Source of the DNA: Alistipes sp.
GTDB lineage: Bacteria; Bacteroidota; Bacteroidia; Bacteroidales; Rikenellaceae
Length of the DNA: 64,000 nucleotides
Assembly (NCBI GenBank): GCA_021202985.1
Contig: JAJQCA010000046.1
Span: forward strand, 81,217 to 145,216
Direction of reading: 5' to 3'
The notes under the pieces were generated by a model, which had not been told where the DNA came from, made no database searches, and saw only the letters and a list, made by a program, of their open reading frames with translations. Positions 17,337-24,988 of the stretch are shown here, piece after piece (within the stretch, counting starts at the first letter, position 1; each line of letters starts with the position of its first letter). A program made the position numbers and the translations under genes.

Positions 17337-18113
17337 TCACTCCTTCAGCAGTTTACCCATCAGTTTATTGACCGCTTCGGCTATCGACGGTTCTCTGCCC
17401 AGCAGGCGGATAAACTCGCTGCCGATTATCGCGCCGTTGGCGTTCCCGCATGCGGCCACGAATGTGGGGCGGTTGGATATCCCGAACCCGATCAGGCGGG
17501 GGTTGCGCAGCCCCATGCCGTTTATCTTCCGGAAATACTCCAGCGTATCTTCGCTGAAACTGTCCTTAGCCCCGGTGGTGGAGGCCGTGCTGACCATATA
17601 GATAAACCCGGAGGTGTTCTGGTCGATAAGGCGTATCCGTTCTTCCGAGGTCTCGGGGGTTATAAGCATTATGAATTTTAGGCCGTACTCCTCGCCCAGG
17701 TCCTTGTACTGGCTCATATAGTCGGCGAATGGCAGGTCGGGGATTATCACCCCGTCGATGCCGCACTCGAAACAGTCGCGGCAGAATCTCTCGGGGCCGT
17801 ACTGCATGATGGGGTTCAGGTAGCCCATCATCACCAGCGGGATGTCCACGCGGGAGCGGATATCCTTCAACTGGCCGAACAGTTTTTTGAGCGACATGCC
17901 GTTGTTTAGGGCAACCGTGCCGCTCTGCTGTATCACGGGGCCGTCGGCCATCGGGTCGGAGAACGGTATTCCCACCTCTATCATATCCACTCCCTGCCCG
18001 GCCAGCTCACGTATCACGGGTACGGTGTCGTCCGCGCACGGGTATCCGGCGGTAAAATAGACCGATATAATTCCCTGCTGTTTTTCTGCGAAAAGTTTGT
18101 CAATCCTGTTCAT
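17337..18113 (-). CDS. trpA: Tryptophan synthase alpha chain
   Basis: YFTAGYPCADDTVPVIRELAGQGVDMIEVGIPFSDPMADGPVIQQSG. Confidence 0.97.
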   Translation of the reverse strand: MNRIDKLFAEKQQGIISVYFTAGYPCADDTVPVIRELAGQGVDMIEVGIPFSDPMADGPVIQQSGTVALNNGMSLKKLFGQLKDIRSRVDIPLVMMGYLNPIMQYGPERFCRDCFECGIDGVIIPDLPFADYMSQYKDLGEEYGLKFIMLITPETSEERIRLIDQNTSGFIYMVSTASTTGAKDSFSEDTLEYFRKINGMGLRNPRLIGFGISNRPTFVAACGNANGAIIGSEFIRLLGREPSIAEAVNKLMGKLLKE

Positions 18114-18745
18114 ATCTTTTTATTCCTTACTGTTTCGATAAATATCCTGAGCAGCTCCGTATCCTTTATCCCGGGGGCCGTCTCGAAGCGGCTGTTAAGG
18201 TCGAACCCCGCGCAGCGCGAATAAATGGACAAGTCGGTAGCGGCATCCTCCGGCCCTATCCCGCCGCTCAGCAGGAACGGGGTCCGGCCGGTGTAGCCAC
18301 TGAGCACGGAGTGGTCGAACCTGCGGCCCGAACCCCCTTTGAGCGGGGTTTTGGTGTCGAATACGAAAAGGTCGCATGCGCCTTCGTACCCTCCTGCCGC
18401 AGAGAGGTCGCCAGCCGAGGAGATGCCGAACGCCTTTATGATCGTAAGGCCCCGGCCCGCGAGGCCCGCGCAGCTTTCCGGCGGTTCGCCGCCGTGAAGC
18501 TGCACGGCGTCCAGCCCGTACTGCCCGGCTATCCGGAAAACGGTTTCGGCCGTTTCGTCCACGAACACCCCTACTTTCCTGATCGCCGCCGGAAGCTGCC
18601 GGACAACGTCCGGAGCCAGGCCGAAGGCATTGCGCGGCGAGGGGCGGTAGAAGATAAAGCCCATCATGTCGGGGGCAAGAGCCGCAACCTGACGCGCATT
18701 ATCCGCATCGGCCATGCCGCAAACCTTTATCAATGGCGATCCCAT
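18110..18745 (-). CDS. trpF: Phosphoribosylanthranilate isomerase
   Basis: IKVCGMADADNARQVAALAPDMMGFIFYRPSPR; VQLHGGE; LLSGGIGPEDA; overlaps trpA start by 4 nt. ORF opens to 18793. Confidence 0.95.
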   Translation of the reverse strand: MGSPLIKVCGMADADNARQVAALAPDMMGFIFYRPSPRNAFGLAPDVVRQLPAAIRKVGVFVDETAETVFRIAGQYGLDAVQLHGGEPPESCAGLAGRGLTIIKAFGISSAGDLSAAGGYEGACDLFVFDTKTPLKGGSGRRFDHSVLSGYTGRTPFLLSGGIGPEDAATDLSIYSRCAGFDLNSRFETAPGIKDTELLRIFIETVRNKKI

Positions 18746-18752
18746 TCCCCTT

Positions 18753-19541
18753 TCAGTTTTCGATGACCCTTGCGAGGAACCCACGGAGCGCACCGGCGGG
18801 GTCGCCGTGTTTCATAAAGTTCTCGCCCATCAGGAAGCCACGGTATCCGTGCCGTGCCAGCTCCCTGACCGTCGACGGGTCGGAAATACCGCTCTCGGAG
18901 ATAAGCAGTTTCCCCGCGGGTAGCAGCCCCGCCATCCTAACCGACACGGCCGTATCGGTAACGAAGGTGGTCAGGTCGCGGTTGTTGATACCCACCACGT
19001 CCACGTCGGGGCATACATGGCCCAACTCGTGTTCGCCGTTCAGTTCCAGAAGGACTTCGAGGCCCAGCCCTTTGGCGAAGGCCGCCAGCCGGGCGGTCTG
19101 CTCTACCGTAAGGTTTGCGGCTATAAGGAGTATCGCGTCCGCGCCAGCCGTCCGCGCTTCGCATATCTGGTATTCGTCGATTAAAAAGTCTTTACGGAGC
19201 AGGGGGATATCCGCCAGGGGGCGCGCGGCGCGCAGGTCGTCGAGCGAACCGCCGAAATAGTTACGGTCGGTAAGCACCGATATGGCCGCCGCCCCGGCCG
19301 CCGCATATCCGGCGACGACCTCTTCGAGCGACGCTCGGCAGTTGATATCGCCTTTGGAGGGCGAGCGGCGTTTGAATTCGGCTATTATGCCGCCCGGGGT
19401 GCGGGCGATTGAGCCGGAGAACGAGCGTGCGGGCCTTTCGACGGCCCGGGCCTCGGCATAGATATCCGCGAAGGGCCGCGCGGCCCGGGCCGCCGCCACC
19501 TCTGCACGTTTCGTCTCTATTATCCGTTCGAGTATATTCAT
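18753..19541 (-). CDS. trpC: Indole-3-glycerol phosphate synthase
   Basis: IIAEFKRRSPSKGDI, AISVLTDRNYFGGSLDDL, LRKDFLIDEYQICEA, GINNRDL. Confidence 0.97.
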   Translation of the reverse strand: MNILERIIETKRAEVAAARAARPFADIYAEARAVERPARSFSGSIARTPGGIIAEFKRRSPSKGDINCRASLEEVVAGYAAAGAAAISVLTDRNYFGGSLDDLRAARPLADIPLLRKDFLIDEYQICEARTAGADAILLIAANLTVEQTARLAAFAKGLGLEVLLELNGEHELGHVCPDVDVVGINNRDLTTFVTDTAVSVRMAGLLPAGKLLISESGISDPSTVRELARHGYRGFLMGENFMKHGDPAGALRGFLARVIEN

Positions 19542-19683
19542 CGGGTTATGTGTTTATTTTGGGTACTTTCTATTGCTTACACAATCCTAGTTCTAACGAC
19601 TGACAACAACCGTCCAGGGCGGGATGGTTGCCCTCCATATTTCCGGAGCCACGGCCGGGCCGGGAATTGTGACGGGCCGGCAG

Positions 19684-19742
19684 TTTAGCCTGCATTTATC
19701 TCCGCGAAACTTGCGAATGCTGCGGTGGAGCTGCACGAGCAA
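19684..19742 (-). pseudogene. Degenerate duplicate of the trpD 3' end
   Basis: About 44/58 nt identical, no gaps, to 19761-19819; same frame reads ...TAAFASFAEINAG* versus TrpD ...AAAAFAKFTGINAG*. Confidence 0.7.
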
Positions 19743-19761
19743 TTTAGTGTCAGGTATACCT

Positions 19762-20760
19762 TTAGCCCGCATTTATCCCTGTGAATTTCGCGAACGCGGC
19801 GGCGGCCCTGCCCGAGCGAATGGATTCCCGCGCCTTGCCGATACAGTCGGCAATGGGGAGCGCCGGCTCGAAATTGCGTATCGCAAAGGCCGCGTTAGCC
19901 ACCACGGCGTTCTCCTGCGCCGGGGTCGCCGTTCCGTTAAGCACATTGTCGAATATGCGTGCCGCCTCGGCCACGGTCTCACCGCCGTGCAGTTCCTCCT
20001 GGCCGGCGCGGGGGAACCCGAGTTCCTCGGGGGTAAGAATACCCTCGCCGTTGTTGTCCATGTATTTGAAATCGCTCGTAAGCGATATCTCGTCGTAACC
20101 GTCGAGCGAATTGACGATGGTGAAACGGGTGTCTCCCTGCTGGTACATATAGCTGTAGAGCCGTGCCAGTTTGAGGTTATAGACCCCCAGCAACTGCCGT
20201 TTGGGGATCACCGGGTTCACCAGCGGCCCCAGCATATTGAAGAACGTGCGCACCCCCAGCGCCTTGCGCACAGGGCCTACGGCCTTCAGCGCAGGGTTGA
20301 AGAACTGTGCGTGGAGGTATGCTATATTACACTCGTCCAGCGAGCGGCGGAGCAGGTCGGTATCGGTGGTGAATTTGACGCCGTGGTGCTCGATAACGTT
20401 CGAGGCGCCGCTTACGGAGGTCGCCCCGTAGTTGCCGTGCTTCACGACTTTGTACCCGGCCCCGGCGACTGTGAAACAGGCCGCCGTGGAGATATTGAAC
20501 GTGTTCTTGTTGTCGCCGCCCGTGCCCACTATATCTATCGCGTCGTAATCGCCCAGGTCCACCGGTACCCGCATCTCGAGAAGTGCGTCGCGGAAACCCG
20601 ACAGTTCGTCGAGCGTGATGCTGCGCATCAGGAAGACGGTTATGAAAGCGGCTATCTGGCTTTCGTTGAACTCGCCGCGGGCCATGCGGATAAGCACGTC
20701 GCGGGCTTCGGAGCGGTCCAACTCGCTGTGCTCGAAGAGCCTGTAAAGTATATTTTTCAT
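19762..20760 (-). CDS. trpD: Anthranilate phosphoribosyltransferase
   Basis: DIVGTGGDNKNTFNISTAACFTVAGAGYKVVKHGNYG; NMLGPLVNP. Confidence 0.97.
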   Translation of the reverse strand: MKNILYRLFEHSELDRSEARDVLIRMARGEFNESQIAAFITVFLMRSITLDELSGFRDALLEMRVPVDLGDYDAIDIVGTGGDNKNTFNISTAACFTVAGAGYKVVKHGNYGATSVSGASNVIEHHGVKFTTDTDLLRRSLDECNIAYLHAQFFNPALKAVGPVRKALGVRTFFNMLGPLVNPVIPKRQLLGVYNLKLARLYSYMYQQGDTRFTIVNSLDGYDEISLTSDFKYMDNNGEGILTPEELGFPRAGQEELHGGETVAEAARIFDNVLNGTATPAQENAVVANAAFAIRNFEPALPIADCIGKARESIRSGRAAAAFAKFTGINAG

Positions 20761-20772
20761 ACGCGCCGTCGG

Positions 20773-21342
20773 TTACATTTCGAGCCAGTTCTTCAGGATG
20801 GCATTGCCGCACGGGGTCAGCACCGATTCGGGATGGAACTGCACCCCCCGCACGTCGTAGCGGCGGTGGCGCAGGGCCATAATTTTTCCTTCTTCGTCTT
20901 CCGCGGTAACCTCCAGTTCCTCCCCGGGGAAGCCTTCCCGGTCCACGATCCACGAATGGTACCGACCGGCGACGAAGGCCTCGCCGACACCGGCGAAGAC
21001 GGGGTCCGGAGCCGTAACTTTTATTTCGGTCCCCACCCCGTGGAAAACGTCGGGCAGGTTCAGCAGCCGCGCCCCGAATACTTCTCCGATGGCCTGTTCG
21101 CCGAGGCATACCCCGAAGATACTCTTTACGGGGGCATACTCTTTTATAAGTGCGCACAGTATGCCGCTCTCGGCAGGGATACCCGGGCCGGGAGAGAGTA
21201 GTATCTTATCGTAGGCCACGACCTCTTCGAGCGCGATCTTATCGTTCCTCGCCACAGTGATATCCTCCGCCCCGGCCTCGCGGAGCGAATGGACAAGGTT
21301 ATAGGTGAACGAGTCGTAATTATCCAGTACCAGTATTTTCAT
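20773..21342 (-). CDS. trpG: Anthranilate synthase component II (glutamine amidotransferase)
   Basis: LVLDNYDSFTYNLVH; LLSPGPGIP; FGVCLGEQAIGE; GVQFHPESVLTPCG. Confidence 0.96.
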   Translation of the reverse strand: MKILVLDNYDSFTYNLVHSLREAGAEDITVARNDKIALEEVVAYDKILLSPGPGIPAESGILCALIKEYAPVKSIFGVCLGEQAIGEVFGARLLNLPDVFHGVGTEIKVTAPDPVFAGVGEAFVAGRYHSWIVDREGFPGEELEVTAEDEEGKIMALRHRRYDVRGVQFHPESVLTPCGNAILKNWLEM

Positions 21343-21413
21343 ATTTTAGTGGTCTTTAGAGAAGGGCCGAAAGGTCCAAAAAAACCTCGTTGGTAACATC
21401 TTGCACCAAATAA

Positions 21414-21442
21414 AATTCTTAGGCTCCGCCCTGAGTGACATT
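21414..21442. repeat. Copy of the ATTCTT..CTCCGCCCTGAGTGACAT intergenic repeat between trpG and trpE
   Basis: Resembles the 10126 and 34459 units (divergent). Confidence 0.5.
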
Positions 21443-21447
21443 TTAAA

Positions 21448-22845
21448 CTATTTTATCCCGCCCGCCAATTCTATTGCCTTGCGAAGCGCACCGAGTTTGT
21501 TGTTCACCTCCTTCAGCTCGTTGGCCGGGACCGATTTGGATACGATTCCCGCCCCGGCCTGGAAGTAGAGTGTATTGTTGCGGCTGACGAATGTGCGGAT
21601 GGTGATAGCCTGGTTGAGGTTGCCGTCGAAACCGATATGCCCTATACATCCGCCGTACACCCCGCGCGGATGCGCCTCTATCTCGTCTATCAACTGCATC
21701 GCCCTCACCTTCGGGGCTCCTGAGAGCGTCCCGGCCGGGAATGTGTCGGCGAACAGGCGGATACGGTTCACACCGGGCTTAATCTCCCCGGTGACACGCG
21801 ATACCATATGTATCACGTGGGAGTAGAACTGTATCTCCTTGTACGACTCTACCCGCACGTTCGATGCGTTGCGGCTCAGGTCGTTGCGGGCCAGATCCAC
21901 GAGCATTACGTGTTCGGAGTTCTCTTTCGGGTCGGCCATCAGCCGCTCGGCCAGGCGCCGGTCCTTCTCGTCGTCGCCGGTGCGGTAGATGGTGCCCGCG
22001 ATGGGGTCGATGGTTGCCTTTCCGCCCTCGACCTTGACATGCGTCTCGGGCGAGGAGCCGAAAATGCGGAACGATCCGAAATCGAAATAGAAGAGGTACG
22101 GCGAAGGGTTCACCGACCTGAGGGCGCGGTAAACCATAAAGTCGTCGCCCATATATTGCTGCTCGAAGCGGCGCGAGAGCACTATCTGGAACACGTCCCC
22201 GCGCATGCAGTGCTCGATACCCTTCTCGACCATCCGCATATAATCCTCGTCCGTGACGGGAGAGGTGACCTCGCTGCGGGTGGAAAAACCGTAGGTCGGG
22301 AAGTTGCGGCTCTCGATTACCGACAGCAGTTCGTCCAGGCCGCTCGGGCATCCGCCGGTAAGGTTCTCCGTTACGGTCATCTCGTTGCGCAGGTGGTTTA
22401 CCGCCACCACGTAACGATAGAGTATATAGGTCATCTCGGGGATACCGGCCAGTTCTTCGTCGGTGCCCGTTATCCGGACATCCTCGAAATACTTTACGGC
22501 GTCGTAGGAAGTATACCCGAACAGCCCGTTGGAGGCCGCTGTGTCTCCCGTCACCTCGAATGAGGCCAAGAAATCGTTCAGCGCGTCCTGCACCGTGCGG
22601 CCGTTAACGGCCGTAACGTTTATCGTTCCGTCGGGATACTGCTCCGTTATCTTCCCGCCGCGGACCGAAAAACGGGCCAGCGGCTCGATACCGATAAACG
22701 AGAAGCTATTCTCCGAAGAGTGGTAGTCGGAGCTCTCCAGCAGCGCCGACTGCGGGTACATATCCCGCACCTTCAGGTAGATACCCACCGGGGTCTGCAG
22801 GTCGGCCAGCAGGCGGCGGGAGTTGACTGTTATTTTTGTTTTCAT
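21448..22845 (-). CDS. trpE: Anthranilate synthase component I
   Basis: DVFQIVLSRRFEQQ; SPYLFYFDFG; IAGTIYRTGDDEKDRRLAERLMADPKENSEHVMLVDLARNDLSR; GAPKVRAMQLIDEIE. Confidence 0.97.
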   Translation of the reverse strand: MKTKITVNSRRLLADLQTPVGIYLKVRDMYPQSALLESSDYHSSENSFSFIGIEPLARFSVRGGKITEQYPDGTINVTAVNGRTVQDALNDFLASFEVTGDTAASNGLFGYTSYDAVKYFEDVRITGTDEELAGIPEMTYILYRYVVAVNHLRNEMTVTENLTGGCPSGLDELLSVIESRNFPTYGFSTRSEVTSPVTDEDYMRMVEKGIEHCMRGDVFQIVLSRRFEQQYMGDDFMVYRALRSVNPSPYLFYFDFGSFRIFGSSPETHVKVEGGKATIDPIAGTIYRTGDDEKDRRLAERLMADPKENSEHVMLVDLARNDLSRNASNVRVESYKEIQFYSHVIHMVSRVTGEIKPGVNRIRLFADTFPAGTLSGAPKVRAMQLIDEIEAHPRGVYGGCIGHIGFDGNLNQAITIRTFVSRNNTLYFQAGAGIVSKSVPANELKEVNNKLGALRKAIELAGGIK

Positions 22846-22920: not shown

Positions 22921-24120
22921 TTACGAACCCTCCTGCCGGGTGCTGTTGAAATATTCCACGAACGTCTCCATATCCTTGTCCCCGCGGCCCGAAAGGGTCA
23001 GCACCACCACATCCTCCTGCCGGAAATCCATTTTGCCGAGCGCACCCAGCGCGTGGGCCGATTCGATGGCGGGTATTATGCCTTCGAGGCGCGTCAGTTC
23101 CATCGCCGCGGCGAGCGCCTCGTCGTCGGTCACGGCCACAACCTGCGACCTGCCCGTCACGGCAAGGTTAGCATGCATCGGCCCTATGCCGGGATAGTCC
23201 AGCCCGGCCGACACGGAGTAGGGCTCGGTTATCTGCCCGTCCTCGTCCTGCATCACGAACGTGCGGCTGCCGTGGATTATGCCCCGTTTGCCGAGGTGGA
23301 TTGTGGCGGCTGTCTCGCCCGAATCCACGCCCAGTCCCGCGGCCTCGCTCGCCACCAGCTTCACCCGCATATCGTCGAGGTAGTGGTAGAAGGTCCCGGC
23401 GCCGTTGCTCCCGCCGCCCACGCATGCCATCAGGTAGTCGGGCCAGTCGCGCCCTTCGTGCCGCTGTAACTGGTTCTTTATCTCGGAGCTTATCACCGAC
23501 TGGAACTGCGCCACCATATCGGGGTACGGGTGCGGCCCGACCGTGGAGCCTATGATATAGTGTGTGTCGGCCGGGTTGCAGCACCAGTCGCGGATAGCCT
23601 CGTTGGTGGCGTCCTTGAGAGTTTTATTTCCACTGGTAACAGGCCTCACCTCGGCGCCGAGCATCTCCATCTTCTGGACGTTGAGTTTCTGGCGCGCAAT
23701 ATCCGTCTCGCCCATATAGACGATGCACCGCATCCCCTTCAGGGCGCATACCGTGGCCGTGGCGACGCCGTGCTGCCCTGCGCCGGTCTCGGCGATAATG
23801 CGCGTCTTTCCCATACGGCGGGCCAGGAGTATCTGCCCGATGGTGTTGTTTATTTTATGGGCCCCGGTATGGTTGAGGTCCTCGCGTTTGAGGTAGACGC
23901 GGGCCCCGTACCTCTCCGAAAGCCGCGAAGCGAAATAGAGCGGGGTCGGGCGTCCTACGTAATCCCGCAGGAGGTTGTCGAACTCGGCCCGGAAATCCGG
24001 GTCGGACATGATTTCAAGATATTGCTCCCGCAAGTTCTTCACGTTGCCGTAGAGTATCTCCGGTATATAGGCTCCCCCGAACTCCCCGTAGTACCCCTCG
24101 CTGTTGACATTGTAATCCAT
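22921..24120 (-). CDS. trpB: Tryptophan synthase beta chain
   Basis: [68 protein letters not shown]. Confidence 0.97.
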
Positions 24121-24181
24121 GGTAATATTTCAATTTGTTTTATTTCTGTACATGCCCTTTACAGTCCGGGCCGGAAGGATC

Positions 24182-24216
24182 AAAAATTAAGGGCTGTCGT
24201 GAATCCGACAGCCCTT
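24182..24216 (-). terminator. trp attenuator terminator hairpin
   Basis: Minus strand AAGGGCTGTCG-GATTCA-CGACAGCCCTT then AATTTTTG. Confidence 0.88.
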
Positions 24217-24282
24217 TTATGTTTATTGCCCTGTTTCGTGCAAACATACGGCGTAACCATTCACGACTCCCGGAGTTGTGAA
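24196..24282 (-). promoter_or_regulatory. trp operon attenuator (Bacteroid-trp-like leader): strand 1, strand 2 and antiterminator target
   Basis: Strand 1 TTCACAACTC (24273-24282) pairs with strand 2 GAGTCGTGAA (24260-24269); strand 2 GTCGTGAAT (24259-24267) pairs perfectly with ATTCACGAC (24196-24204) in the terminator loop and 3' arm. Confidence 0.85.
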
Positions 24283-24320
24283 CGCCACCACCATGCTTTG
24301 TTCGAAAATAAGTTTTTCAT
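24261..24320 (-). CDS. trpL: trp leader peptide MKNLFSNKAWWWRSQLRES
   Basis: ATG at 24320, three consecutive TGG codons at 24285-24293, TGA at 24261-24263 inside attenuator strand 2. Confidence 0.88.
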   Translation of the reverse strand: MKNLFSNKAWWWRSQLRES

Positions 24321-24351
24321 TTTTTTGTCGAGCCACTACTGGCTTTCGGTG

Positions 24352-24381
24352 CAAATATAAATAAATTTTTAGTAATGCAAA
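24352..24381 (-). promoter_or_regulatory. Putative trp promoter (TTTG-N18-TATATTTG)
   Basis: -33 TTTG (24378-24381) and -7 TATATTTG (24352-24359), 32 nt upstream of the leader ATG. Confidence 0.65.
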
Positions 24382-24526
24382 TATTATTCCTTGCTCTACG
24401 GGAAGGCTTTGCCGGGATACCACATGAAATCGGATAAAAAACAATCAAATTAATTAGCTAATGTTAAACAATTTACATATATTTAACCGACCCTGAAGAA
24501 CATTGATCGCACATAACATTACGAAT

Positions 24527-24988
24527 ATGAAAACCCACATTTTAAAACTTGCCGCAGTTTGTTTTGTGGCAAGTTGCGCTCTGATATCCTGCAAATCCAA
24601 CGAGAAGTACGAAACATGGCAAGCGACGGGAACGATTATCGGCAGCTACTCAAACGGCTTCGCCTCGATGATGCTCCAAGTAGACGACGAATACCCTATC
24701 GGGCAGATCCTCGAATGTGATAGGGAGGGCCGTCCCGAGTCACACGGGGTCAACGGCACGGGACTGACCATGCCCGAAGCCGGTACGTATCATAATATAA
24801 TTCAGGTTCAGGCCCATATGGATAAGACGTATTACGAAATATCGGGTAAAAGATTGTCCTTTTCTTACAGGGAGTATAATGAAGACAAAGACCGGGATTT
24901 GTTCATGATCGGTAGTGGCATGGCATTGATGTTCGATGCTGCTCCGCAGGTCCCGAAATATATTATCACATCATATAAAATTCTTTAA
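24527..24988 (+). CDS. Small hypothetical lipoprotein
   Basis: MKTHILKLAAVCFVASCALISC lipobox; start internal to ORF 24503. Confidence 0.6.
   Translation: MKTHILKLAAVCFVASCALISCKSNEKYETWQATGTIIGSYSNGFASMMLQVDDEYPIGQILECDREGRPESHGVNGTGLTMPEAGTYHNIIQVQAHMDKTYYEISGKRLSFSYREYNEDKDRDLFMIGSGMALMFDAAPQVPKYIITSYKIL

Follow-up and report, generated by a model that had tools for sequence, protein, structure and literature searches.

The region from 24381 to 24181 on the minus strand of the window (the whole stretch of 64,000 nucleotides that was analysed) raises the question whether the trp operon behind it is controlled by a ribosome-mediated attenuator and, if so, which part of the terminator the antiterminator captures. 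All evidence described here was obtained by computation on the sequence of this locus and on those of related loci. The sequence reads as a promoter, a leader peptide, a 1:2 hairpin and an 11-bp terminator with a U5 tract, followed by trpBEGDCFA (Table 1). This gene order, B-E-G-D-C-F-A, had been assigned by an earlier sequence-only reading and was borne out by NCBIfam; trpE and trpF scored under the curated equivalog cut-offs, yet neither had a better match to another function. The named best relatives of the window trpB were Bacteroidota, except for one MAG labelled Clostridium sp. The position of trpB as the first gene had been taken as unusual and is ordinary instead, as the same order has been described for BT_0527-0533 of B. 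thetaiotaomicron, written trpAFCDGEB (PMC11898669). On the plus strand, a divergent ORF of 161 aa with a lipoprotein-like N-terminus is located at 24503..24988; an NCBIfam search with this ORF gave no match.

The leader ORF, unannotated and proposed to encode a WWW peptide upstream of trpB, starts with ATG at 24320 and ends with TGA at 24263..24261, within strand 2 of the hairpin. Its start is preceded by an A-rich run and no Shine-Dalgarno sequence, the lack of which is usual in Bacteroidota (PMC7366714). A W(W)W leader was found at the same place in 28 of 28 same-family trpB loci with enough upstream DNA, a count that leaves out L134 and L140, in which contig ends interrupt the upstream DNA, and in each of the 28 loci a terminator follows. 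Loss of the WWW ORF in relatives had been named as an observation that would speak against the element; the ORF is conserved. Further leaders were gathered through trpB/trpE synteny, after a survey of the same taxonomic order with the Rfam model RF01692 (Bacteroid-trp) at E≤10 had given mostly noise. This resulted in 97 leaders across Bacteroidota, from trpB loci including named genomes and from trpE-upstream loci of Flavobacteriaceae and others. A Trp-codon leader was also present in all of 30 additional trpE loci. The leader accompanies the first gene of the operon, which is trpB in Bacteroidales, trpE in Flavobacteriaceae and trpD in Sphingobacterium. Most relatives have three Trp codons and some have two; the leader of L039 (upstream of trpB), MKTILVNACLWRFLQLQKS, has a single one, with the hairpin and terminator kept. 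In L042 and L055, both upstream of trpB, the WWW leader begins with GTG rather than ATG, and ATG-only scans miss it.

The promoter-like element that had been pointed out, TTTG-N18-TATATTTG, is present and agrees with the Bacteroidota primary-sigma consensus of TTTG at -33 and TAnnTTTG at -7 (as quoted in PMC7366714). The pattern TTTG-N17-20-TAnnTTTG had a single match in the whole 64-kb window, the trp promoter site. This uniqueness is not decisive taken alone, because 0.24 matches are expected by chance. The motif TAnnTTTG recurs at most 100 nt upstream of 83 of the 97 Bacteroidota leaders (5.8 expected). Since the W-rich leader occurs in 28/28 same-family loci and recurs across Bacteroidota, the comparison indicates that the leader, the promoter motif and the terminator are not a product of chance. 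This conservation is, at the level of sequence, the decisive evidence for the reality of the element. As in an attenuator, codons for the amino acid of the pathway (WWW) lie in a conserved short leader ORF before the trp genes.

Table 1. Features of the trp leader region and operon in the window (window positions).
Feature	Position	Strand	Remarks
Promoter TTTG-N18-TATATTTG	24352..24381	-	Bacteroidota sigma-ABfr type, -33/-7
trp leader peptide ORF MKNLFSNKAWWWRSQLRES	24261..24320	-	sequence; W-rich leader kept in same-family trpB loci
Three Trp control codons TGG TGG TGG	24285..24293	-	sequence
Strand 1 TTCACAACTC	24273..24282	-	pairs with strand 2; 1:2 covariation
Strand 2 GAGTCGTGAAT	24259..24269	-	includes the stop of the leader; its core GTCGTGAAT forms the 5' side of the antiterminator
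Inner helix, 5' side TATGTTT	24242..24248	-	pairs with 24224..24218; weakly supported
Inner helix, 3' side AAACATA	24218..24224	-	weakly supported
Terminator 5' arm AAGGGCTGTCG (strand 3)	24206..24216	-	3:4 covariation
Antiterminator 3' side ATTCACGAC	24196..24204	-	terminator loop and first 4 nt of the 3' arm
Terminator 3' arm CGACAGCCCTT and U tract	24182..24199	-	sequence and covariation
trpB, first gene of the operon	22921..24120	-	TIGR00263, 584.9 bits, above cut-off
trpE, trpG, trpD, trpC, trpF, trpA, in this order	17337..22845	-	NCBIfam matches

The RNA elements claimed by the sequence-only reading, a strand 1/strand 2 pairing with the stop codon in strand 2, a 9-nt complementarity of strand 2 to the terminator loop plus the start of the 3' arm, and an 11-bp terminator stem followed by T5 (24216..24182), were all seen at the window locus. 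TTCACAACTC (24282..24273) and GAGTCGTGAA (24269..24260) form 9 pairs with one A.C mismatch. The strand-2 core GTCGTGAAT (24267..24259) is the perfect complement of ATTCACGAC (24204..24196), which spans 5 loop nt and, counted from the loop, the first 4 nt of the 11-nt terminator 3' arm. This match scores 22; among strand-2 shuffles, pooled over loci, 0.2% score as high. The terminator AAGGGCTGTCG(GATTCA)CGACAGCCCTT (24216..24189) is followed by AA and then by U5 (24186..24182). The locus thus combines an intrinsic terminator with a competing antiterminator. Among the 87 loci with a recognised core, the leader stop codon overlaps the strand-2 core in 56. For the inner helix TATGTTT:AAACATA, covariation by permutation gave a z of ~2.7, with the largest permutation exceeding the observed value. 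A further candidate mechanism, in which the segment that follows strand 2 would hide the 5' arm, was rejected because such pairing did not clearly exceed that of shuffles.

Covariation was analysed in 53 distinct Bacteroidales sequences in a plain MAFFT alignment without structural fitting. In the 1:2 helix, 89.5% of the cells were paired and 7 of 9 pairs had changes on both sides; the 3:4 helix was paired in 99.1% of the cells, with double-sided changes in 10 of 11 pairs. The helix between strand 2 and the loop plus the first four nt of the 3' arm was paired in 94.3% of the cells, with 5 of 7 pairs changed on both sides, and in slid versions of this helix pairing dropped to 9–68%. Its covariation score was 0.319 compared to 0.223 (sd 0.013) in shuffles, a comparison to be read with the fact that the shuffle controls retain phylogenetic relatedness, which inflates shuffle-based significance. 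Column 56 in strand 2 has two alternative partners, column 35 of strand 1 and column 157 of the terminator. It is changed from G to A in 19 sequences, in which both partners are changed from C to U, with no mismatch in either pairing. The terminator stem does not account for the change at column 157, since in most members this column is a loop position outside the stem. Run on the part-emerged transcript, RNAalifold returned the helix of strand 2 with the loop and the first four nt of the 3' arm unprompted. The alignments thus support each of three mutually exclusive predicted helices, and the pairing of strand 2 with the terminator, for which compensatory changes upstream of trpB had been suggested as a check, is conserved with such changes.

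Complementarity was also compared between matched and permuted partners at 95 loci. For strand 2 and the loop plus 3' arm, matched partners scored 17.26 and permuted partners 14.62 (sd 0.25); in the same test there was no matched-partner excess for the terminator 5' arm (11.16 vs 11.16). The 2:3 pairing of the classical E. coli wiring, in which the terminator 5' arm is sequestered, was therefore not found, pairing of the 5' arm being at chance. Scored in this way, strand 2 faces the loop and 3' arm in 27 of the 28 same-family trp leaders (27:1), and in the E. coli trpL control it faces the 5' arm (CGGGC:GCCCG). The genome of the window has a his leader as well, a GTG-started MIFSAHNIHHHHLSPRG upstream of hisG (L178:2503-2633, contig C48), with the terminator AGGACTTGCC(CGAAA)GGCAGGTCCT and a strand 2, GGGTAAGTC, that pairs with the 5' arm. 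Of 30 same-family loci examined, 16 had a His-rich leader and a terminator before hisG; among these, under the same scoring as trp, the 5' arm was favoured in 14, the 3' arm in none, with 2 ties. Since the same-family his leaders score 14:0 for the 5' arm, the scoring has no bias in favour of the 3' arm, and the strongest internal control for wiring is the his leader of the window's own genome. Nine his-leader loci gave no match to Rfam at E≤0.1, and the upstream regions of leu, ilv and thr gave no attenuator leader candidate (ATG starts only).

These comparisons weigh on a classical wiring, in which a stalled ribosome would let strand 2 or the next segment pair with the 5' arm and the 3'-arm match would be secondary. 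The 5' arm is indeed partly paired upstream in the stalled-state folds of most loci, and this wiring is used by Pontibacter and Sphingobacteriales and, in the window's own genome, by the his leader. However, pairing of the 5' arm amounted to 5.62 nt compared to 5.19 nt with shuffled middle segments (p 0.05), and to 5.42 compared to 5.34 within the same family (p 0.84). Together with the missing matched-partner excess for the 5' arm and the opposite outcomes for trp and his leaders under one scoring, this makes classical wiring of the window locus improbable.

The sequence-only reading had treated an antiterminator that invades the loop and 3' arm as an unusual detail. The predicted pairing is not peculiar to the window locus but is a conserved design in Bacteroidales and Flavobacteriaceae. 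Flavobacteriaceae have the loop plus 3'-arm wiring with GTCGTGA:TCACGAC and variants, and the Saprospiraceae loci L093 and L103 have it too. In three loci of one Bacteroidota family, L166, L167 and L169 (upstream of trpE), the sequences of leader, strand 2 and terminator loop are wholly replaced; despite this, the loop plus 3'-arm wiring is kept (GGGAAA:TTTCCC, as in L167 and L169). In Pontibacter strand 2 faces the terminator 5' arm, GTGAACAGC against GCTGTTCAC, as it does in Sphingobacteriales and a few others, so wiring differs within the phylum. L084, L085, L106 (Pontibacter), L107 and L070 have WWW leaders with a classical 5'-arm antiterminator upstream of trp genes.

Folding with a ribosome footprint was performed on the 95 loci; the footprint size, the pseudoknot-free equilibrium folding and the simple complementarity scores are simplifications. 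With 6 nt of the 3' arm emerged, 89 of the 95 loci were predicted to switch, forming the terminator with the ribosome at the stop codon and not with the ribosome stalled on WWW, and 80 of these 89 act through the loop/3' arm. At this point the mean probability of the terminator in 28 same-family loci was 0.01 with a stalled ribosome and 0.98 with the ribosome at the stop. With strand 2 scrambled in silico it rose to 0.76 in the stalled state; scrambling thus largely abolishes the predicted switch. When the whole stem had emerged, the terminator was the equilibrium fold despite a stalled ribosome in 92 of 95 loci, which suggests that the antiterminator would need a short time window, that is, kinetic control. 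The fold without a ribosome formed 1:2, followed by the terminator. At the window locus, a variant with one change in strand 2 had its terminator delayed almost as much as the native leader until 7 nt of the 3' arm had emerged; the effect is small since the 5' arm is taken up by other segments too. In these models the clear effect of strand 2 is therefore a family average and not one of the window locus alone. The lower terminator stem and the antiterminator could also exist together as a pseudoknot.

Anatomy, conservation, covariation of three pairings and folding in silico all argue for ribosome-mediated attenuation, as the sequence-only reading had proposed. We put the probability at roughly 0.8 that the locus is a Trp-sensing, ribosome-mediated transcription attenuator with a kinetically controlled antiterminator that captures the loop and 3' arm. 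From these data we infer stalling, kinetic control, termination and the response to Trp as follows. RNA polymerase would start near 24345, and a ribosome would translate the leader. At low Trp-tRNA levels the ribosome would stall on WWW, cover strand 1 and leave strand 2 free to capture the emerging terminator loop and the top of the 3' arm before the hairpin nucleates, and transcription would run on into trpBEGDCFA. With enough Trp, the ribosome would get to the stop codon inside strand 2 and mask strand 2, and the terminator would form. Without translation 1:2 would form, making termination the default. In L124, L135, L136, L138 and L057 the leader frame passes strand 2 and its stop comes 51–66 nt beyond the Trp codons, so that in these loci a terminating ribosome would not mask strand 2 in the way described.

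The residues after WWW are conserved in Bacteroidales (R-x-L-Q-L...S), as might be expected if the nascent leader peptide sensed free Trp in a TnaC-like, Rho-dependent manner rather than through slow translation of Trp codons. Yet the codons of these residues lie in strands 1 and 2, between which covariation is seen at the RNA level; Flavobacteriaceae carry different residues after WWW, some members deviate in frame and stop position, and an intrinsic terminator is present, so that we hold peptide sensing to be very improbable. That the leader is non-regulatory or controls only the translation of trpB is hardly credible, given a conserved terminator and U tract with 10 of 11 compensating pairs and a leader that stays in front of the operon whichever gene comes first (trpE in Flavobacteriaceae, trpD in Sphingobacterium).

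The window locus is thus very probably a genuine Trp attenuator, ordinary in purpose, and a divergent relative of an RNA class already known; the new part, as far as found, is the conserved flipped antiterminator of this class. A search of the open PMC literature, where the class appears in few papers and RF01692 is cited by one, gave nothing relevant on a loop or 3'-arm antiterminator, and the main text of Weinberg et al. 2010 gives the Bacteroid-trp motif in a table only (PMC2864571). On balance we favour a more general view in which trp operons of Bacteroidota would have a mirror-image attenuator: capture of the loop and the top of the 3' arm would block nucleation of the hairpin in a short kinetic window, the 5' arm would not be hidden, and the topology would have changed within the phylum with the logic kept. 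The change of topology is suggested by the classical wiring of homologous trp leaders in Pontibacter and Sphingobacteriales and of the his leader in the window's own genome. Textbook attenuators hide the terminator 5' arm, which is feasible before the 3' arm exists. In the design of the window locus strand 2 would compete for the 3' arm itself, beginning at the loop. If this is true, antitermination is decided by which strand first reaches the emerging arm, and the locus offers a natural system in which to test how strands compete during transcription, the control being a classical his attenuator within the same cell. The design may also provide a phylum-wide rule for locating attenuators that Rfam misses, and the putative Trp switch belongs to gut Bacteroidota, a group in which the supply of indole and Trp is of consequence for the host.

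Bacteroid-trp (RF01692) is the closest class, and homology to it, as suggested from the sequence, is supported by an alignment that is full-length though sub-threshold and by a same-family locus that passes the model. The proposed covariance search aligned the window locus over the full model (1-131/131) with 40.7 bits and an E of 0.0036 in 801 nt, but there was no match at the gathering cut-off of 49 bits, and a search of the own genome gave no match at E≤0.001, so that a relaxed threshold was needed. Because 40.7 bits is below the 49-bit cut-off, the window leader is best described from its sequence as a divergent relative of Bacteroid-trp and not a formal member. RF01692 passed 1 of 20 same-family loci (L117, 52.2 bits) and missed 19; it passed 6 of 9 other Bacteroidales and 17 of 20 trpE loci with mainly Flavobacteriaceae-type leaders, a label that rests on leader and TrpE similarity. 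Terminator and antiterminator are not described by the model, whose last position falls within the 5' arm of the terminator. Like Bacteroid-trp, the window leader lies upstream of Bacteroidota trp genes and has a tandem-Trp leader ORF followed by an extended 1:2 hairpin. It aligned in a common MAFFT set with Bacteroides and Parabacteroides members scoring 52–112 bits, and it shares sequence and wiring with passing members: those of Bacteroides, Parabacteroides and Flavobacteriaceae mostly have the same loop plus 3'-arm pairing. The difference is that the window copy is sub-threshold.

The his leader of the same genome is the His-codon counterpart, of the E. coli hisL type, and is classically wired, with strand 2 directed to the 5' arm and loop. 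The E. coli trp attenuator (trpL) resembles the window locus in its tandem Trp codons, 1:2 hairpin, intrinsic terminator and mutually exclusive pairings. In trpL the leader stop codon lies between strands 1 and 2, whereas at the window locus it lies inside strand 2; and the strand 2 of trpL pairs with the terminator 5' arm, whereas that of the window pairs with the loop and the 3' arm.
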